DNA of 34,439 nt from Dehalococcoidales bacterium (GCA_016927955.1 JAFGLR010000145.1:1-34439), one strand, 5' to 3'; positions 7,030 through 34,439 are shown, numbered from the stretch's first letter. Numbers and translations: made by a program. Notes: generated by a model not told the origin, from the sequence alone.

Positions 7030-8282
7030 AAATCCTCCCCACCCCAATCCAGCATCATAACGTCTACGGTATCGCCGGGCTTGACCAGCGGTTTATCTTC
7101 CGGAACGACAGCGAGCCCATTAGCCAGGCTCATGGAAGTTAAAATACTGGAGCCCTGATGCCCCGAAGTGCGTGCGAAATATCGGTCACTACGGCGTTCG
7201 ACCACTACCCGGGCATACACGCGCCTCCCATCATCGTTTTTCAGTGTATCCTCGGATATGGCTTGAATCATCCTTTTTTCGAAATTGGTTTTACCGGACA
7301 TCTTTAATATAGCGGGACGAGCGAATACCTCAAAGGTAACTGTAGAGCTTCCCTGATTGCCGGGAAGGCCTAAATGGGGGACTTCGCGGTTGCCGACCGA
7401 GAAAATACTAAAAAGGACCGGTTTACCGGGTTTCAGACGAACTTTCCAGAAGATAACGCGGCCTTCTTTCTCAACGATATCTTTGACCAAATCGAAATCA
7501 CCCATCGAAACCCCACCGGTAGTAATAAGCATATCAGCCTGTAACCCCTGGTGCATGAGGGGGCCGAGAGAGTCTTCACTGTCTCTGGCGATACCGAGTA
7601 CCTCGGGGATACCGCCATATCTGGTTACCAGAGAAGCTATGGTATAAGAGTTACTATTATAAAGCTTGCCCGGAGACAAAGGGCAGCCTGTTTCGACCAG
7701 CTCATTGCCGGTAACTAATACGGCAACCCGCGGCCGCCTTATAACTTTAAGGTGGCTTTTACCCACTGAAGCCAGTAAGCCGAGGTGGGCCGGATTAAGA
7801 ATAGTACCCCTGGATACGGCCAGCGAACCTTTACGGACATCATCGCCGGTGCGGCGGATATGGTTGCCCTTCGGTGCTGCACGGAATATTGCGACCTCAT
7901 CAGCCTTCCGGTCTTGTTTATCGGTATCTTCAAAGGGGACGACACTATCGGCGCCGGATGGTACCGGGGCCCCGGTCATAATTCTGATAGCGGTGCCGCC
8001 GGTAACAGAGTGTGATGAAATCGCTCCGGCGATAACGGTATCGATGACTTTTAATGTACGGGGTGACTGAGAACTGGCTCCTGATGTATCTTCAGCGCGA
8101 ACCGCAAAACCATCCATGGCGGAGTTATCCAGAGTGGGGATATCGATATCTGCAATGACGTCTTCCGCCAGTACCTGACCCCGGCATTCCAGGAGAGGTC
8201 TGGTTTCCGCCTCCAGAACTTTCGTATTGCTGAGGACTTTATTCAATGCCTCTTCGACTGTTAGCATATCTGTTTTCGCCAT
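7026..8282 (-). CDS. moeA: MoeA-type molybdopterin molybdenum/tungsten transferase
   Basis: Inserts molybdate or tungstate into adenylated molybdopterin. The 418 residues show the MoeA order: N-terminal domain with SAMDGFAVRAED, the MoCF-binding domain with GNELVETG, TTGGVSMGDFDLVKD, and a C-terminal beta domain. The usual LPGNPVS motif reads LPGNQGSS here. The gene starts 5 nt after the paaX-like gene and overlaps mobB by 4 nt, so cofactor synthesis is probably co-transcribed with, and under control of, the repressor. The neighbouring BamB-like enzyme makes tungsten the likely metal. Length is normal for the family. Confidence 0.9.
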   Translation of the reverse strand: MAKTDMLTVEEALNKVLSNTKVLEAETRPLLECRGQVLAEDVIADIDIPTLDNSAMDGFAVRAEDTSGASSQSPRTLKVIDTVIAGAISSHSVTGGTAIRIMTGAPVPSGADSVVPFEDTDKQDRKADEVAIFRAAPKGNHIRRTGDDVRKGSLAVSRGTILNPAHLGLLASVGKSHLKVIRRPRVAVLVTGNELVETGCPLSPGKLYNSNSYTIASLVTRYGGIPEVLGIARDSEDSLGPLMHQGLQADMLITTGGVSMGDFDLVKDIVEKEGRVIFWKVRLKPGKPVLFSIFSVGNREVPHLGLPGNQGSSTVTFEVFARPAILKMSGKTNFEKRMIQAISEDTLKNDDGRRVYARVVVERRSDRYFARTSGHQGSSILTSMSLANGLAVVPEDKPLVKPGDTVDVMMLDWGGEDL

Positions 8283-8287
8283 AACTC

Positions 8288-9250
8288 TTAACTCATAAAT
8301 ATCCTTTGCGATGATGGCAGAACCGTACTCATATTCAGCACCTGTCTCCGGAAAGAAACCGGGGAATGCTTCCCGGTATTTACTTTATTCCGGCGGCGGG
8401 GCTTACGGCCGGTATTTGCCGGTGTTTCCCGGTAATCACCGGTGACGGAGTCAAAGTATTCATTTGCTTTCTCAGTGAGGGAGCCGTGGTATTCCTCAAA
8501 TAAAGCCGCTGCCTGAGGTCGCAGCCAGTCAGCGGGGAGCAATTCCGCGGGTAAATCGGGGTCGAAAAAGGGCAGCTTACGGTATTCATGGATAAGATTA
8601 AAACGGGCGACAAAACACTCGCTGGGGGTAATTGTTTCTCCGTCCTGTAGCCGCTGCATATGTTCGGCGAGCTTCGGACGGTACTCAGCGATGAAATCAG
8701 CGTATTGGCGGTGTATTTTATTCAGGTTCCAGCAGCGGGAAACGATTTTTTTCGGGTTGGTACCGCCCTGATGGATGGCATTAAATATATGAATGTACTC
8801 CTCGATTTTAAGCCGGCGTAGCAGGTTTTTGACGTCTTTGGTCAGGTCGTAAGGAGAAATCCAGGTGGCTTCGCCAAGAGGCCCGTAACCCAGCCAGACT
8901 AACTCCAGACGGAGCCGGTCTCTCGCCGGCCGGAGGCGTTCCGGTATGGAATAGGTGACGATATTCCAGTTGCCGTTCCATGTTGAATTCTTGCGCTGAA
9001 AGATACGCAGGGCACCTTCGGTAAGCAGGTTATAGCCGTCACCGGTGAGGGAATAATAACTTTTGGAGCCGGTACGCCTGGCTTTAAGAAGACCGGAACG
9101 GCACATGCGCGAGACAGCAGACCGGATGGCCTGTTCCGATAAACCGAAGTTGTTGAGTAATCTGACCAGACTACCAATCCCAATTTCCCCTCCCCGGTGG
9201 AGAACATAATCTCCGTAGAGAGTCAGCATCGCGGCTCTTGGATGGAACAT
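8288..9250 (-). CDS. PaaX-family transcriptional repressor
   Basis: A 320-residue regulator with the PaaX N-terminal winged-helix domain (residues about 4-75): LTLYGDYVLHRGGEIGIGSL, then FGLSEQAIRSAVSRMCRSGLL and SKSYYSLT, followed by the PaaX central and C-terminal domains. PaaX represses phenylacetate catabolism in E. coli and is released by phenylacetyl-CoA; relatives sense other aryl-CoA or acyl-CoA thioesters. Length matches E. coli PaaX (316). As first gene of the moeA-mobB-rSAM-bam operon and divergent from the 9573 gene, it probably controls both and itself. The last 40 residues are basic and low in complexity. ATG 9250 has GAGG upstream. Confidence 0.88.
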   Translation of the reverse strand: MFHPRAAMLTLYGDYVLHRGGEIGIGSLVRLLNNFGLSEQAIRSAVSRMCRSGLLKARRTGSKSYYSLTGDGYNLLTEGALRIFQRKNSTWNGNWNIVTYSIPERLRPARDRLRLELVWLGYGPLGEATWISPYDLTKDVKNLLRRLKIEEYIHIFNAIHQGGTNPKKIVSRCWNLNKIHRQYADFIAEYRPKLAEHMQRLQDGETITPSECFVARFNLIHEYRKLPFFDPDLPAELLPADWLRPQAAALFEEYHGSLTEKANEYFDSVTGDYRETPANTGRKPRRRNKVNTGKHSPVSFRRQVLNMSTVLPSSQRIFMS

Positions 9251-9295
9251 CGGTATGCCTCTATTTTGATAGTGCGTATTTTAAACGCCATATTA

Positions 9296-9324
9296 ATTTT
9301 ATCACCCATTATAAGGCAAGTCAA
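9296..9324 (-). promoter_or_regulatory. Sigma-70-type promoter of the paaX-moeA-mobB-bam operon
   Basis: On the minus strand TTGACT (9324-9319) and TAAAAT (9301-9296) are separated by exactly 17 nt, a near-consensus promoter about 45 nt before the paaX ATG. An inverted repeat GCGT/ACGC lies just downstream and may be part of an autoregulatory site. Confidence 0.6.
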
Positions 9325-9371
9325 TCTCGTACAGATATATTTTTCGTCCTGTTAAGGTGCCCTTACCGGCC

Positions 9372-9438
9372 TATCGGATTATCATAACGGGGCTAGAAAT
9401 GTCCGATACGAAATGCTATAATTAGTGAAATAATCACT
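9372..9438 (+). promoter_or_regulatory. Promoter with inverted repeats upstream of the membrane Fe-S gene
   Basis: An extended -10, TGCTATAAT, lies at 9414-9422, with a weak -35 TAGAAA at 9394-9399 (17-nt spacer). Two inverted repeats frame it: TATCGGA (9372-9378) with TCCGATA (9402-9408), centres 30 bp or about three helical turns apart, and AGTGA (9424-9428) with TCACT (9434-9438). This looks like an operator for a dimeric regulator, possibly the PaaX-like protein encoded next door. The rest of the 322-nt gap up to 9572 holds the palindrome at 9516 and the ribosome site. Confidence 0.45.
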
Positions 9439-9515
9439 TAATATAATCCTGAGATAATTCCCGGATAGGTTTATCGTTTAAGAGCAATCAGTGGTTCTTT
9501 TAGAAGTGAGAAGCT

Positions 9516-9525
9516 TATCCGGATA
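9516..9525. promoter_or_regulatory. Perfect palindrome TATCCGGATA
   Basis: A ten-base perfect palindrome 47 nt before the ATG of the 9573 gene. The same core occurs in an intergenic 14-base palindrome at 18547-18560 and, with one change, in the bamB promoter spacer at 5073-5082. CCGGATA also occurs at 9461-9467. It is a candidate operator half of a small regulon. Confidence 0.35.
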
Positions 9526-9572
9526 CTTGAGTGGAATAATATTAGAGTCTCCGAAAAAGGGGGGTTAATATC

Positions 9573-11594
9573 ATGCCGGGTACAGTCCTATATTACGTTC
9601 TATTCTGGGGGGTATTCCTGATTTCCCTCGGCATATTTATGTATCGCTTCAGGCAATTATGGCAATATACGTTTTTAGGCCAGAAAGTCGATAAAAGAAG
9701 TCCCTTCAGACAAATCTGGGACACACTGGCCTATATCCTCAGTCAGCTTTGCCAGTTAAAGAATTTCCGGTTAAAAGACTTTGCTCCGCTGGGACATGCG
9801 TTAATGGTCTGGGGCTTCTTCGTTTCCATCCTGTTCTACTTCTTCTTCATCATACTGGCCGGTGGTCTGGGCCTGGTAGGTCTGGAAGATACAGCCTTCT
9901 ATTTCTACTTCGTTTGGGTAATGGAATTCATGGCAGCCTTCGTATTCATCGGTGCCTTATGGGCGGTAATACGGCGTTATATAGTCCGTCCGGACCGTCT
10001 TAAGGGCGAACAGACCTGGGAAGCGGGTATTATCCTGTTCTCCGTGTTGACACATCCGATAACCCACTTTTTCGAGATAGCAACCAAGATTGCCGCCGGG
10101 CACTTCCCTGAGGAGTTCGGTGCTATTCTACCGCCCATCAGCGGCTGGATTAGCAATTTATTCGTCGGCAACACTCACATAATAGGCTGGAATCTCGGTT
10201 TTTCGTGGGCACACTGGCTAACGGTAGTATTAGTGCTCATCCTTATACCTTACACAAGATACACCCATATCATTGCTTCAATCTTCAACGGTATATTACG
10301 GAATCCGCAGCGGATGGGTGTGTTAAAAACCATCGACGTAGAAAAAGAGATGGAGAAAGAAGACCCCTTTGCCTGCAAGGCGGATACGCTTACGTGGAAA
10401 CAGAACCTAGACTTGTTTTCCTGCGTGGTCTGCGGTAACTGCCAGGAACTCTGCCCGGCTTATAATACCGAAAAACCGTTGAATCCGAAAAAGGTAATTC
10501 AGGACCTGAAAAAACATCTCCTTAAAGTAGGGCCGCAAATGGTGGCCGCAAAGAATAAGGGGGAAACGGTTTCCGAGGAAGTTAATATTCCACTACCCGG
10601 TAATGTGGTAACGGAAGATGAAATCTGGGCATGCAGTACGTGCGGTGCCTGCGATACCGTCTGTCCGGTCTGGGTAGACCATGTCGATAAGATAGTCGAT
10701 ATGCGGCGCAATTTAGTACTGGCACAATCGGTGATGCCGGAAACTGCCAAGGGAGCGCTGGAGAGTATCGAAAAGAGAGGCCACCCGTGGCGCGGCACGA
10801 CCAAACAGCGTACCGACTGGGCGGAAGGCCTGGATGTGAAGACGATGGCGGAAGATGCCGAAGTGGATATCCTGTTCTGGGTAGGCTGCACTTCGGCACT
10901 GGAAGACCGTAGCGTTAAGATTTCTCAGGCTTTCGCCAAGTTGATGAAGCAGGCAGGGATAAAATTCGGTATTCTGGGACCGGAAGAAAGCTGCTGCGGC
11001 GACCCGGCACGCCGTCTGGGAAACGAGTACCTCTACCAGATGATGGCACAGCAGAATATCGAAGTTATGAAGGGTTATAACGTTAAGAAGATAGTAACAG
11101 CCTGTCCGCACTGCTTTAACACGCTGAAAAATGAGTATCCGCAGTTCGGCGGCAACTTTGAAGTGGTACATTACACTGAGTATATCAATGAGCTAATCGC
11201 AGCCGGCAAGATAAAATGTGCTGCCAGTGGCTTCGGTAAGGTGACCTATCATGATTCCTGCTATCTCGGGCGGCATAACGACATCTACCAGCCGCCGCGC
11301 CAGATTCTCAAGAGTATGCCCGGTATGAATTTGTTGGAAATGGAAATGAACAAGAAGCGGGGCTTTTGCTGCGGCGGCGGCGGCGGACGGATGTGGCTGG
11401 AAGAAAAAGGTATGCGGATGGGCGAGAGCCGTGTCCAGCAGGCTATGGATATTAAAGCCGATATGATTACGACGGCGTGTCCGTTCTGCTTGCAGATGTT
11501 CGATGACGCTATTAAAGCTAAGCAGGCCGAGGAGACCTTCAAGGTGAAGGATATCGCCCAAATGGTATTGGAATCTTCGTCGAACCAAAAATAA
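9573..11594 (+). CDS. Membrane NarI/HdrD-type Fe-S oxidoreductase, probable ETF:menaquinone oxidoreductase
   Basis: A 673-residue membrane protein. The first 230 residues hold about six hydrophobic segments of the NarI cytochrome-b type. They are followed by two 4Fe-4S sites, CVVCGNCQELCP and CSTCGACDTVCP, and two CCG domains with CCGDPARR, CPHCFNTL, HDSCYLGRHN, CCGGGGG and CPFC. Proteins of this build in syntrophic fatty-acid and benzoate degraders pass electrons from ETF to menaquinone (EMO) during acyl-CoA dehydrogenation. The gene stands alone, with AAGGGGGG before its ATG and a terminator after it, but shares its upstream region with the PaaX-like repressor. ETF genes are not in the window. 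Architecture is certain; the EMO role is a family-based inference. Confidence 0.85.
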   Translation: MPGTVLYYVLFWGVFLISLGIFMYRFRQLWQYTFLGQKVDKRSPFRQIWDTLAYILSQLCQLKNFRLKDFAPLGHALMVWGFFVSILFYFFFIILAGGLGLVGLEDTAFYFYFVWVMEFMAAFVFIGALWAVIRRYIVRPDRLKGEQTWEAGIILFSVLTHPITHFFEIATKIAAGHFPEEFGAILPPISGWISNLFVGNTHIIGWNLGFSWAHWLTVVLVLILIPYTRYTHIIASIFNGILRNPQRMGVLKTIDVEKEMEKEDPFACKADTLTWKQNLDLFSCVVCGNCQELCPAYNTEKPLNPKKVIQDLKKHLLKVGPQMVAAKNKGETVSEEVNIPLPGNVVTEDEIWACSTCGACDTVCPVWVDHVDKIVDMRRNLVLAQSVMPETAKGALESIEKRGHPWRGTTKQRTDWAEGLDVKTMAEDAEVDILFWVGCTSALEDRSVKISQAFAKLMKQAGIKFGILGPEESCCGDPARRLGNEYLYQMMAQQNIEVMKGYNVKKIVTACPHCFNTLKNEYPQFGGNFEVVHYTEYINELIAAGKIKCAASGFGKVTYHDSCYLGRHNDIYQPPRQILKSMPGMNLLEMEMNKKRGFCCGGGGGRMWLEEKGMRMGESRVQQAMDIKADMITTACPFCLQMFDDAIKAKQAEETFKVKDIAQMVLESSSNQK

Positions 11595-30209: not shown

Positions 30210-31304
30210 TTAAGAACGAAGCACCGCCCATGCGTCATGTTCATTTTGGGCTGCAGCCTGTCGAATTGCGAAATGAATTGCTTGTCGGCGACCGCAGTCA
30301 GCAGAACCAGCTGGCTTGATTGTCCTAAGGATCCATGATGAATCTTTAAATGATTGCTTTAAGATATATACCGGATCGATATTCCTATCTGCGATTCCCC
30401 CAAACCTAATTACCATTCGGGCATCAGGCGAGGAAATAGAAGCTGTGTTCTCCCACACCGAATGTAGCTGTCTTGCGAACGATTCTGGACTTCCGTGGTC
30501 GAGTTGATTGTTATTTGAGTAGTCAACATCGCTGGGTCCACCTAGGAACCAGTTTCTTAGCCATTGATCTGGGATATAGGTGCGCATTCCGTAATAAGGC
30601 GGAGAAGTCACGATCCATTTAACACGTATTTGTTCAAGCCGTTGAAAAACTCGGATATCACGGCTATCTCCCTCTATAACAAATCCTCTTGCTCGTGGTT
30701 GGTCAGAATAATAACGTTCGGCACGTGTACGAATAACATGTAATACATCAACAAATGGTGGATTCATGTGATGTTCCTGCCAAAATCGAACAGCATATCG
30801 TGGTTTGGGTGCATATGTACGAGTGCATTGATTAGAGAAATAAGCTGGCTTCGTTTTAGCCATGGGGCCATGCAATGCTCCTAAGATTACAGCCCGAAGG
30901 GCTTTACGGGCATCTGATTGACAATTCCGTATAAGTTCACGTCGCATTCGGCATAAAGAGTCTAAAACTAGGGGATGGTACCCGAGCGACCAGAATTCGC
31001 CACTAGGAATATCAGACGACGAGGTTTCACGAAGAATGCGATTTGCACAAGATATGATGACGCTTGGGGTTACATTCGCCAACTTGGCTTCAGTCAACGC
31101 GACTGCTACAGGACTGCTGTCCACACCGATTGAGGGAAGTCCTAGTAAACGGGCCGCGTAGGTCGTCGTTCCTCTCCCAGAGAAAGGATCCATCACCCAT
31201 TCTGACTTCGATGCATATTGTTTAAGAATTCTTAGAGGAAATTCAAGCGGAAACATTGTAAAGTATGGACAGATTCCATTAAGTGTAGATTGCGTTATGG
31301 ACAT
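30210..31304 (-). CDS. DNA methyltransferase (N4-cytosine/N6-adenine type)
   Basis: A 364-residue SAM-dependent DNA methylase. The SAM-binding motif is DPFSGRGTT at residues 39-47, preceded by FPLEFPLRIL; the catalytic motif TSPPYYGMRTY begins at residue 233. TSPPY favours N4-cytosine over N6-adenine methylation. The motif order (SAM site before the catalytic site) and the long insert of about 190 residues between them, likely for target recognition, distinguish it from the common beta class, where the order is reversed. Its ATG overlaps the herA-like stop as TAATG, so it belongs to the same unit. It may mark self DNA for the HerA-NurA pair. Confidence 0.82.
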   Translation of the reverse strand: MSITQSTLNGICPYFTMFPLEFPLRILKQYASKSEWVMDPFSGRGTTTYAARLLGLPSIGVDSSPVAVALTEAKLANVTPSVIISCANRILRETSSSDIPSGEFWSLGYHPLVLDSLCRMRRELIRNCQSDARKALRAVILGALHGPMAKTKPAYFSNQCTRTYAPKPRYAVRFWQEHHMNPPFVDVLHVIRTRAERYYSDQPRARGFVIEGDSRDIRVFQRLEQIRVKWIVTSPPYYGMRTYIPDQWLRNWFLGGPSDVDYSNNNQLDHGSPESFARQLHSVWENTASISSPDARMVIRFGGIADRNIDPVYILKQSFKDSSWILRTIKPAGSADCGRRQAIHFAIRQAAAQNEHDAWAVLRS

Positions 31305-33448
31305 TAAATCGAACTCCTAATTAAACGCACATATACCTTATTATTCCTTTGTGTATTCTCATAAGAGTGCCATAACTCGTTTTGAGGTCCTATGACCTCA
31401 TTCAAAGCTTTTGCTACTAGTTGATAAGCAATTTCATCTCGATCCTCAAGGTTATTTGGGAGTTGTCCGAGAAGAAATGCCTTCACAGTGCCCCAAGCTG
31501 CACCCTCTTGTTTAATTTTTCCAATAAGATCCGAATTGCGAAATGCTTCTATGGCATTTTTTTCAAAAGCTGCAATAATATCAGTGCCGGTTATATTAGA
31601 ATCAGGGACATCCTCGACTCCGTTGGATGCAATTACAGCAGGAGGTTGGCCAGCCATGACCCTTTGTTCATCGATAACTGGAATACCCATTTTACGTAAC
31701 GTTTTCTCAAATTCTTCTCGGAGTGAAAGAGCGTAAGTATTTGCCGCAGGAGCGTTTCGGTCTTTGTCTCTTAACGGGTATAAGGCCTCGAACGAAAAAA
31801 CTCGAAGCGAAACCGGGTATGGTGAACCTCCGACTGAACTCCAGAATACGCAGTGACCCGGAATGGGCTCATTTAAAAGCGAACTCAGAAGATCGTTACT
31901 AAAATGAGCATTTGCATTCTTAACGTTTATAAGGTCAGCACTGGATAACAGATGAAAAATAAACCAGTTATCTCCTTGGCTAAGAATCTCAACAGGGATA
32001 CTCCCTGGTTGCTGAGTTATAAGTAGCGCACCAAGATCGTACTTTCTACCCTCTTTTACCCAAGCGATAAATGGCTCAGCGCTGGTCATATGCTCATCCA
32101 AAACGGTTTGGGCCTCTTCAATAACTGCGATCGTTGGGATGGTCCGGGGTTCCGCAGAAGTAAATTCCACCTGATTGTGGTCAAATATCCGCCTAAGGAT
32201 AAGGCCAGAAAGCACTAAAGCCTGACCACTACGCAGTTGAGACGTATCAATGACGCAGAGCTTACCCGCCCTAAGAGCTTGAAATAATAAATCCATAAAC
32301 TGGCTGCTCTTGTCGTGTAGCATACGAACAATAGTTGTCATGTTAGCGCGGGCTGCGAGTGCTTCCATATCTTGTTTTGGATCTAAGTCTAGTATTCGCT
32401 TGATATCATCTAGCGGAGTCTGATTGCCGTGTTCATCGATATTATTAACCAACTCCTCCCACTGCTGTTGGCCCAGTCCTCGCAGTTTTCCAACATTCTG
32501 TTGAGTCTGCTTATCTGGGCCAAGAGCAATTGCGATTACGTCACTTGGACGAAGCCGTCGTAAATCAAGGCGAATGCCTCCAGCAACAAAGGATTGATAA
32601 AACGGACTTTGATTTCTCTTCGGGGTGAATACAACCAATTTGTCTTCTAAAGCTGGAACATCTGCAAGTCCAGGGCGACCAGTGACATCTGGCCAGAAAT
32701 ATTCACCTTCAGGGTCGAATATAATTGTGCCAACGGGAATCTGACGTTTTCCTGGCTTCTCTATAACTGGCGGGGTTTCGTAAAGTTTACTGAACAGGAG
32801 TTTGTTCAAATTTGACTTACCAAAACCTGCGCGGGCGAAGACGAAAGAACGACGAGATACGAGACTAGTGAGGGGGAATTTAATCTCAATGTTGGGCTCG
32901 CATATCTGCACCCAGTCTTCAAGTTGGTCAGCATAATTGCTACCCTGCGCATATACGTATTCACCAAGTGCAAAGAATCCAACTGGAGCGCCTTTGATGT
33001 TGTGCCCAGCGATCTCCCGTAGCACTTCACCAGAAGGAAAAGCAACGGGACTTCCAACATGCGGGAGACGACGATGAGATGCAACGAATTGCACCTTGTT
33101 TTCAGCCCGACGCAGAACGCCTAAAACTCGTATGTTAACGGCGTACCTAAGATATTGTTCGCGTAAGTCTTCAGGCACTGCCCGTTCTCCTTTCATCGCT
33201 CGGATATTAAACTCCTCACCGCTACTGCTAGAGAGCCGCCCCATCGAAGAGAACGATGTAATCCGTCCTAAAACTGCCTCATCTGTTGTTTCCAATTGTA
33301 CTAAGATAAACTGCCCATGCATAGGAATACGCTGGAAATCGCTTCTGTACGGCAAAATAACATCAGCGTGAAATTCAAGACCACCTTCGCGAAATCCGCG
33401 AAATACCCCTACGATGTCTTGTCGATTAAATAACTCCGGTATTAGCAT
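31304..33448 (-). CDS. HerA-like FtsK/HerA superfamily ATPase
   Basis: A 714-residue hexameric DNA-translocating ATPase. The N-terminal part (1-190) resembles the HerA barrel domain. Walker A is ARAGFGKSN (205-213), the DPEGEY segment follows, Walker B is IAVIEEAQ (440-447), and the sensor region is ALLITQQPGSIP (about 476-487). HerA feeds DNA to NurA nuclease in archaea; in bacteria, HerA-type genes often lie in defence islands. About 100 residues extend past the usual core and may bind partners. The ATG follows a perfect AAGGAGGT that overlaps the end of the nurA-like gene, 11 nt upstream. Codon use looks more AT-rich than in the neighbouring metabolic genes. Confidence 0.88.
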   Translation of the reverse strand: MLIPELFNRQDIVGVFRGFREGGLEFHADVILPYRSDFQRIPMHGQFILVQLETTDEAVLGRITSFSSMGRLSSSSGEEFNIRAMKGERAVPEDLREQYLRYAVNIRVLGVLRRAENKVQFVASHRRLPHVGSPVAFPSGEVLREIAGHNIKGAPVGFFALGEYVYAQGSNYADQLEDWVQICEPNIEIKFPLTSLVSRRSFVFARAGFGKSNLNKLLFSKLYETPPVIEKPGKRQIPVGTIIFDPEGEYFWPDVTGRPGLADVPALEDKLVVFTPKRNQSPFYQSFVAGGIRLDLRRLRPSDVIAIALGPDKQTQQNVGKLRGLGQQQWEELVNNIDEHGNQTPLDDIKRILDLDPKQDMEALAARANMTTIVRMLHDKSSQFMDLLFQALRAGKLCVIDTSQLRSGQALVLSGLILRRIFDHNQVEFTSAEPRTIPTIAVIEEAQTVLDEHMTSAEPFIAWVKEGRKYDLGALLITQQPGSIPVEILSQGDNWFIFHLLSSADLINVKNANAHFSNDLLSSLLNEPIPGHCVFWSSVGGSPYPVSLRVFSFEALYPLRDKDRNAPAANTYALSLREEFEKTLRKMGIPVIDEQRVMAGQPPAVIASNGVEDVPDSNITGTDIIAAFEKNAIEAFRNSDLIGKIKQEGAAWGTVKAFLLGQLPNNLEDRDEIAYQLVAKALNEVIGPQNELWHSYENTQRNNKVYVRLIRSSI

Positions 33449-33459
33449 ATTTAACCTCC

Positions 33460-34263
33460 TTAGTCATAACGGCTTTGTGCAGGGTCTGTATCTTGGAGGC
33501 GAAATGAGTCCAAGACCGGAGCAGCATCGCCGAGCACTTTGCGAATTCCCGCAAATATTTCATCTTGAAGAATATCGAAGTCAAAGTCTACTAATGCAGC
33601 GTTTTCATGAGCTTTTTGAAGACAGCGCGGATACAGAGGAACCGGAAAGCCATCTATGGCATCCGCGAGGAGATACCCCAGTATAGCTTGTGCGTTTTCT
33701 CTTTGCGGAAGAAAGATGTCAATGGGCCAGATTGGGTCACGTGTACCATTCCCAAATTTGACTAGAAACATTTTCCCACCGACGAACTTATTAATTTCAG
33801 CTCCTGAAAGCTCACGATCGTCACCGCGCGCGTATTCAGACCACACATATGCCTTTTCCTCGATCTCGCGAGGTACTTCTACATAAGCCGGATATTCTGT
33901 AACCAATACTCTTTCTATTGCCATTGCCAGTCGATAACGAGCAAGTACTTTACTATGCTTGGCTACTCCGACAAGGTAGATACGCCTTCGGTTTCTTTGA
34001 AATTGAAGGTCAATCGCTCTCTTAATCTTTTCAAGATAGGTTTTAAAAAGGTCTTTCGAAAATATTTTACTGCGTAATAAACCATCAGCAACTATGAGAG
34101 TATCGGTTCCAAAATCCTTTTTTTTAAGAATTGAATAAAGAACTGCCCATTCTACTAACTCGCGATACACCATAACCCAACTGGTACTTGTAGGTGCTCC
34201 AGTGTCATTAAGTCTGATCATGTGTGTAAGATCAGGTAAAGTCTTCACACCTAAATCATTCAT
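33460..34263 (-). CDS. NurA-like nuclease, 5' end cut by an IS element
   Basis: The 267-residue frame shows NurA features: VADGLLRSK with Asp60 (the metal-binding motif), YLVGVAKHSK with Lys102, and the C-terminal LLADAIDGFPVPLYPRC followed by QKAHENA. NurA digests DNA together with HerA, encoded next. ATG 34263 is only the first ATG that remains: the frame is open upstream for about 33 codons with no ATG, GTG or TTG (reading VELLSQAQFISDKHP and so on) until a TAA inside the IS21-like end. Typical NurA proteins are longer (about 300-400). So the native start was probably lost to the insertion. The protein may still be made from Met 34263. The NurA call rests on motif pattern and on HerA beside it. 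Confidence 0.68.
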   Translation of the reverse strand: MNDLGVKTLPDLTHMIRLNDTGAPTSTSWVMVYRELVEWAVLYSILKKKDFGTDTLIVADGLLRSKIFSKDLFKTYLEKIKRAIDLQFQRNRRRIYLVGVAKHSKVLARYRLAMAIERVLVTEYPAYVEVPREIEEKAYVWSEYARGDDRELSGAEINKFVGGKMFLVKFGNGTRDPIWPIDIFLPQRENAQAILGYLLADAIDGFPVPLYPRCLQKAHENAALVDFDFDILQDEIFAGIRKVLGDAAPVLDSFRLQDTDPAQSRYD

Positions 34264-34361
34264 TAACTCGCCCAGAGCTGTCTTTGGGTGTTTATCAGAA
34301 ATAAATTGAGCCTGACTTAGTAGTTCAACGCTTGTTGTAGGAGTTATAGCCTCTTGTCGTT

Positions 34362-34439
34362 TCTCAGGTTAATTGACCACCCTGTCTCAAGTTAATGTTC
34401 CACCCATTTTCTCAGCTTAATTTGCCACCCTGGTGCACC
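34362..34439. mobile_element. End of an IS21-like element with three 21-bp repeats
   Basis: Three direct copies of a 21-bp unit, TCTCA..TTAAT...CCACCC, lie at 34362-34382, 34385-34405 and 34410-34430, separated by 2 and 4 bp. Repeated units of this kind near the tips are typical of IS21-family elements, where the transposase IstA binds. The transposase genes would lie beyond the right edge. The tip toward the nurA-like gene is probably near 34355-34362; the exact border cannot be set without the other end. Confidence 0.65.

Follow-up and report, generated by a model that had tools for sequence, protein, structure and literature searches.

A nurA-herA-methyltransferase gene set resembling a restriction-modification system, with its nuclease gene split by an insertion sequence in a Dehalococcoidales genome

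We examined a stretch of 34,439 nucleotides (the window), which is the complete contig C171 of a Dehalococcoidales genome (G000), and in particular a putative defence cassette at its right end. Three minus-strand open reading frames (ORFs) lie there, in the order nurA-like nuclease, herA DNA pump and methylase, and the contig runs out in an insertion sequence (IS):

30210..31304, minus strand: predicted DNA methyltransferase gene, 364 aa (Pfam N6_N4_Mtase, 41-member alignment, structure model)
31304..33448, minus strand: herA/tdpA-like DNA pump ATPase gene, 714 aa, intact (DUF87, alignment, TdpA match)
33460..34353, minus strand: 3' fragment of a nurA/tdpB-like nuclease gene (ORF from the ATG at 34263, frame open to 34353)
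34351..34354, read on the minus strand: AGAG, the nearer of two copies of a 4-bp duplication on either side of the IS (second copy at the nurA break on contig C71, locus L032)
34355..34439: terminal part of a multi-copy IS (...GAGAAACGACA), which interrupts nurA and closes the contig

The herA stop and the methylase start overlap by one base (TAATG), and 11 nt separate the nurA stop from herA. An earlier note on this DNA had described a translationally coupled nuclease, pump and methylase; the three ORFs and the TAATG overlap agree with this for herA and the methylase, whereas nurA is present only as a 3' fragment that ends 11 nt before herA. The note was right that the composition of the region is unlike that of its surroundings, third-position G+C being 0.34-0.38 in the three cassette genes and 0.49-0.60 in 18 neighbouring genes.

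The IS, which had been thought to border the region, in fact interrupts nurA. Intact NurA relatives have about 380 residues, and the window ORF covers family residue 85 to the end; family residues 1-85 lie on contig C71 (11693-11947), where the opposite IS end comes next. AGAG occurs on both sides of the break (C71 and C171), and the two halves of nurA join at the same glutamate. The IS end seen in the window is also found on C22, C61 and C57 of the same genome, and the other end on C71, C156, C150 and C125; a search for IstB, bearing on a possible IS21 assignment, gave partial matches only, on other contigs. An IS insertion has cut nurA in two in the source organism. The invariant DGGN motif of the nuclease is in the C71 half and missing from the window fragment, which holds the invariant DG of DGLLRS. 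Because the IS parts DGGN from the remainder of the protein, the restriction arm is probably disabled in this organism, and any methylase still expressed would be an orphan enzyme.

The pump has the HerA central domain (Pfam DUF87, 3e-20, 73.6 bits against a cut-off of 23.2), with a Walker A segment, ARAGFGKSN, at aa 205-213. The solved structure that its profile matches best is TdpA (8wet_A, 2.5e-25), ahead of Sulfolobus HerA, as for a TdpA-type pump; the PADLOC HerA models match it weakly (best 58 bits), and its extra C-terminal segment (about aa 560-714) has no match in PDB. PDB entries 8wet, 8wfd and 8y1k are TdpA-TdpB of the Tdp system. Tdp is a phosphorothioation-based system, in which TdpC makes the DNA phosphorothioate.

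The nuclease escapes the usual family models. The window fragment scores 15.8 bits with Pfam NurA, below the cut-off of 21, and two intact relatives have no match to that model; none of the PADLOC, NCBIfam or PHROGs models match the intact nuclease, and PADLOC-DB 2.0 and NCBIfam hold no model for it. Its designation as NurA-like comes from likeness in profile and fold to TdpB and NurA, not from the Pfam NurA model. The sole PDB match of the NurA profile is TdpB (3e-5), and Foldseek with an AlphaFold model of the Thermalbibacter NurA (predicted local distance difference test score, pLDDT, 86.6) likewise places TdpB first (8wfd_G, E 2e-12, template modelling (TM) scores 0.65/0.69), followed by Sulfolobus NurA (5e-6). 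Profile and model thus agree on a TdpB-type nuclease, encoded in the window by a split gene; the family is not standard NurA, but has the TdpB/NurA fold. Relative to a canonical HerA-NurA pair (PF01935 plus PF09376), the HerA domain is present and NurA falls short of its cut-off, with NurA-like fold similarity nonetheless evident.

The methylase scores well above the cut-off of Pfam N6_N4_Mtase (3.5e-15). Its motif I, DPFSGRGTT (aa 39-47), precedes motif IV, TSPPY (aa 233-237), and a mostly helical segment (about aa 65-199) separates the two; both motifs are invariant in a 41-member alignment, and the structure model (pLDDT 91) is a Rossmann methyltransferase. All named sequence matches are DNA methylases (among them Thermus 2zie and CcrM) or N6_N4_Mtase.

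The cassette recurs well beyond this genome. A HerA profile scan of 84,980 species genomes gave 166 relatives, and from these we retained the best 80; removal of duplicates left 77 named loci, and addition of the window and four loci from its own phylum made 82. These come from numerous bacterial phyla and also from some archaea. In 81 of the 82 loci the upstream neighbour of herA is nurA; in the remaining one the contig begins within herA. Methylases of a single family adjoin nurA-herA in 59 of the 82, of which 57 are among the 77 named loci; L114, a case split over two contigs, would bring the latter to 58. No further gene recurs beside the pair across this set. In the 57 named loci, the window and L016, the methylase is downstream on the same strand in 38, upstream in 10 and downstream convergent in 11; herA-methylase spacing is -57 to +21 nt in 39 loci, and the HerA tree of methylase-bearing loci requires five changes of arrangement. 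Distances between HerA and methylase correlate (r 0.70), as do those between HerA and NurA (0.92), although shared history alone could give the same. The earlier note had suggested a search for the same three-gene order, and had named absence of the methylase beside homologous herA-nurA pairs as an observation that would sink its proposal; the set recurs in dozens of genomes, and so is more than chance, and the proposal withstands this test, the methylase being adjacent in most loci and in three arrangements. A DNA methylase is thereby genetically linked to a DNA-degrading arm, as in restriction-modification (R-M) systems. Carriers in culture include Thermalbibacter longus, Thermovorax subterraneus, Thioalkalivibrio sp. 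HK1 and Fibrisoma montanum, so that both the methylation motif and the effect on phage are directly testable.

Among relatives of the source organism the distribution is patchy. In its order, none of 155 further genomes has a close HerA relative, though one has a distant one, and among 400 genomes of the phylum close relatives are found in five others plus one fragment; in these 400 the methylase family has three full-length members, each of them adjoining nurA-herA. Phage genomes have no close HerA relatives, and plasmids have distant ones only. Phylum labels require 31 changes on the HerA tree, against a minimum of 16. Cupriavidus cauae and Pandoraea nosoerga have 16,088 bp in common at 99.99% identity; 4.4 kb is common to an alphaproteobacterial and an acidobacterial metagenome-assembled genome (MAG) at 86%, and 3.9 kb to a gammaproteobacterial and a Nitrospirota MAG at 92%, binning error being possible in both of these MAG pairs. 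Such comparisons indicate that copies of the cassette move between genera, and probably also between phyla.

The gene neighbourhood is that of a defence island. On C71 the nurA 5' half is immediately preceded, on the same strand, by a complete Gabija pair (8004-11487; GajA 670 bits and GajB 723 bits with PADLOC; third-position G+C 0.26-0.28), and the neighbours of relatives include TmtA-like, GmrSD and type I R-M-like genes. The source genome has in addition a separate, canonical HerA-NurA pair on contig C100 (4676-8390), with NurA at 101.7 bits and a HerA that has the HAS barrel, and because of it the window cassette is not the house HerA-NurA pair. On C100 a 195-aa gene with no Pfam match lies between HerA and NurA.

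The methylase family also keeps other company. Viral-collection contigs and plasmids carry full-length members too, in most cases with no HerA. Sixteen viral-collection contigs are well matched: ten have a Dna2-like helicase, two have GmrSD plus HEPN, one has the full cassette and one a herA remnant; two plasmids also have the methylase beside a Dna2-like protein. The Dna2-like partner is about 1,400 aa long, with an AAA_11/AAA_12 helicase and, as we read the sequence, a RecB-like N-terminus. Mapping the partners onto a tree of 82 methylases requires 13 changes, and at two loci (L041 and L058) a main-clade HerA is paired with a methylase of the Dna2-like clade. Partner exchange of this kind is as expected if the methylase writes a self mark respected by several effectors. 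We considered whether solo methylases on viral-collection contigs might be phage counter-defence, and set this aside since most of the sixteen contigs carry effector partners and look like defence cargo.

Several of these loci merit separate description. At L137, L138, L140, L141, L149-L157, L173 and L174 the methylase has as its neighbour a convergent Dna2-like helicase of 1,400 aa, in many cases together with a ResIII/TnsA-like protein; such loci occur in viral-collection contigs, plasmids and chromosomes, and the set looks like a separate, uncharacterised defence system. Viral-collection contigs L145 and L146 have the methylase followed by GmrSD_N and HEPN proteins. At L142 (7332-9077) a C-terminal herA remnant adjoins an intact methylase, and a DNA-ligase-like gene lies upstream; this is another cassette in which the restriction side is gone and the methylase retained. 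Plasmid pAt1 of Allochromatium tepidum (L172, 7977-9083) has a solo methylase close to the enzyme of the Thiobacillus cassette (L042), and this stretch of the plasmid has no nurA or herA; the solo methylase could protect the plasmid from such cassettes. A distant branch (L017, L018 and L019, in G214, G509 and G108) has a NurA-like protein and a HerA whose best PDB match is TdpA, followed by a third gene which in L018 matches DruA (PF14236, 202 bits) rather than a methylase, and which may encode a different modification or sensor partner of the same pump-nuclease.

We consider it likely that the cassette is an R-M-like immune system, composed of a HerA/TdpA-type pump, a NurA/TdpB-type nuclease and a DNA methyltransferase, and that it probably destroys unmarked foreign DNA. 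A hexameric pump topped by the nuclease would form the restriction arm. The methylase would mark host DNA, probably as N4-methylcytosine or N6-methyladenine in a fixed motif; the pump would load on unmarked duplex DNA and feed it to the nuclease, and marked DNA would not be loaded, or would stall the pump or fail to activate it. We infer the DNA substrate, the modified base, the sensing step and phage as the target; DNA as the substrate, in particular, is drawn from sequence family and context, because the nearest folds are RNA methyltransferases. The restriction-like proposal of the earlier note finds good comparative support in the gene linkage, the defence island, horizontal movement, the TdpAB likeness and the methylase being common to other restriction effectors; completeness of the set in this organism is not supported. 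More tentatively, and with rather less confidence than in the R-M-like system itself, the cassette may stand for a new class of methylation-gated immunity in bacteria and archaea, in which a TdpAB-like pump-nuclease reads base methylation in place of phosphorothioation. The methylase family would then be a common self-writer for at least three unrelated restriction effectors (NurA-HerA, the Dna2-like helicase, and GmrSD plus HEPN), its one conserved mark giving protection against them all. If so, TdpAB-type pump-nucleases would be a general effector gated by differing self marks, either backbone sulphur or base methylation, and several effectors would share a single methylase family as their self-writer.

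Some observations weigh against an R-M-like system. The 41-member methylase alignment is conserved from end to end and shows no obvious variable recognition domain, in contrast to most R-M specificity modules, and Foldseek with the methylase model puts RNA methyltransferases (AviRa, Trm11) first and then Dam, all with low TM-scores. The pair also occurs without the methylase. In whole-genome searches of loci lacking an adjacent methylase, a full-length one turned up elsewhere for L049, L052, L079, L085 and L114, those of the first four being of the Dna2-like-partnered kind, and fifteen loci had no full-length family member genome-wide, many of these being draft MAGs. Three genomes of the window's own phylum with 96-100% completeness (G480, G241 and G232) also lack a full-length member; G480 is the Roseiflexus genome of L067, and is the one overlap between the two sets. 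Intact nurA-herA can thus apparently exist without this methylase family, whereas an R-M effector would not be expected without its cognate methylase; another methylase may substitute, and a different one lies near the pair at L013. Either gating by this family is therefore not universal among such nurA-herA pairs, or another mark takes its place.

An alternative which we think unlikely, but the least so of three, is that NurA-HerA is a phage-triggered effector responding to an infection signal rather than to missing methylation, a mode attributed to DUF4297-HerA and Sir2-HerA, with the methylase an accessory, for example shielding host DNA from the active nuclease. HerA-nuclease complexes without a modification enzyme do defend against phage, as with DUF4297-HerA (PMC11291478), and the methylase-less pairs and the want of a variable recognition domain in the methylase are in keeping with this. 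Set against it are the adjacency of the methylase in about three quarters of loci in three arrangements and the presence of the same methylase family beside unrelated nucleases. Furthermore, Tdp, the nearest relative, is modification-gated.

Another objection is that the pair performs DNA repair, with the methylase an incidental or epigenetic neighbour. End resection in archaea, reviewed in PMC12977600, is indeed the best-known role of HerA-NurA. A repair-type identity is not supported for this pair: a repair role is less likely because the genome has its canonical HerA-NurA elsewhere, and the window pair is patchy, mobile, Tdp-like, placed beside Gabija and methylase-linked across phyla, so that we regard the objection as very improbable. 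We give equally little credence to a methylase acting on RNA (for example tRNA or rRNA) with a regulatory or toxin-antitoxin-like nuclease link, which draws on the lead of AviRa and Trm11 over Dam and on the missing variable DNA-recognition domain, but for which the RNA enzymes' TM-scores are only 0.34-0.40 of the query, the named sequence matches are as given above, and the family's partners, such as GmrSD and the Dna2-like proteins, are of the DNA-restriction kind.

Returning to the R-M-like system, we found no description of NurA-HerA with a methylase in the open literature, a search that did not take in the Tdp papers or bioRxiv, so that an earlier description is possible; HerA/FtsK capture systems (PMC10853773) and BREX-related capture (PMC12839542) are among the nearest descriptions. 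HerA-NurA of archaea and Deinococcus-Thermus likewise joins a HerA ATPase to a NurA-fold nuclease in adjacent genes, and the Thermococcus pair has been suggested by its authors to have an antiviral role (PMC12977600), but the cassette nuclease is below, or without, the Pfam NurA cut-off and has a methylase attached. DUF4297-HerA and Sir2-HerA (Nezha) also combine a HerA hexamer with an effector enzyme for anti-phage defence (PMC11291478), with a different effector fold and no modification enzyme. HerA/FtsK capture systems and DndFGH (PMC10853773) pair a HerA/FtsK-family pump with a nuclease in defence; DndH, however, is a multidomain fusion with its own restriction endonuclease domain, whereas the cassette has separate HerA and NurA-fold proteins and an active-looking methylase. 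R-M types I-III, BREX and DISARM similarly link a methylase to an ATP-driven arm that degrades or translocates DNA, in a defence-island context; in the cassette NurA-HerA takes the place of that arm, no variable recognition domain is obvious in the methylase, and the conserved neighbours include no specificity subunit, PglZ or DISARM genes.

Tdp is the closest comparison. The sequences have diverged widely (18-19% over the nuclease), the cassette HerA of 714 aa has an extra C-terminal segment relative to the 586 aa of TdpA, and the third gene is a base methyltransferase of N6/N4 type rather than a phosphorothioation enzyme, with no other recurring neighbour to fill the place of TdpC (whose sequence itself was not searched for). 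Pump and nuclease are nevertheless nearest to TdpA and TdpB by sequence, the nuclease also by fold, and the three-gene plan of restriction plus modification is the same; the pump-nuclease looks like the restriction half of Tdp, with a base methylase replacing the phosphorothioation enzyme.

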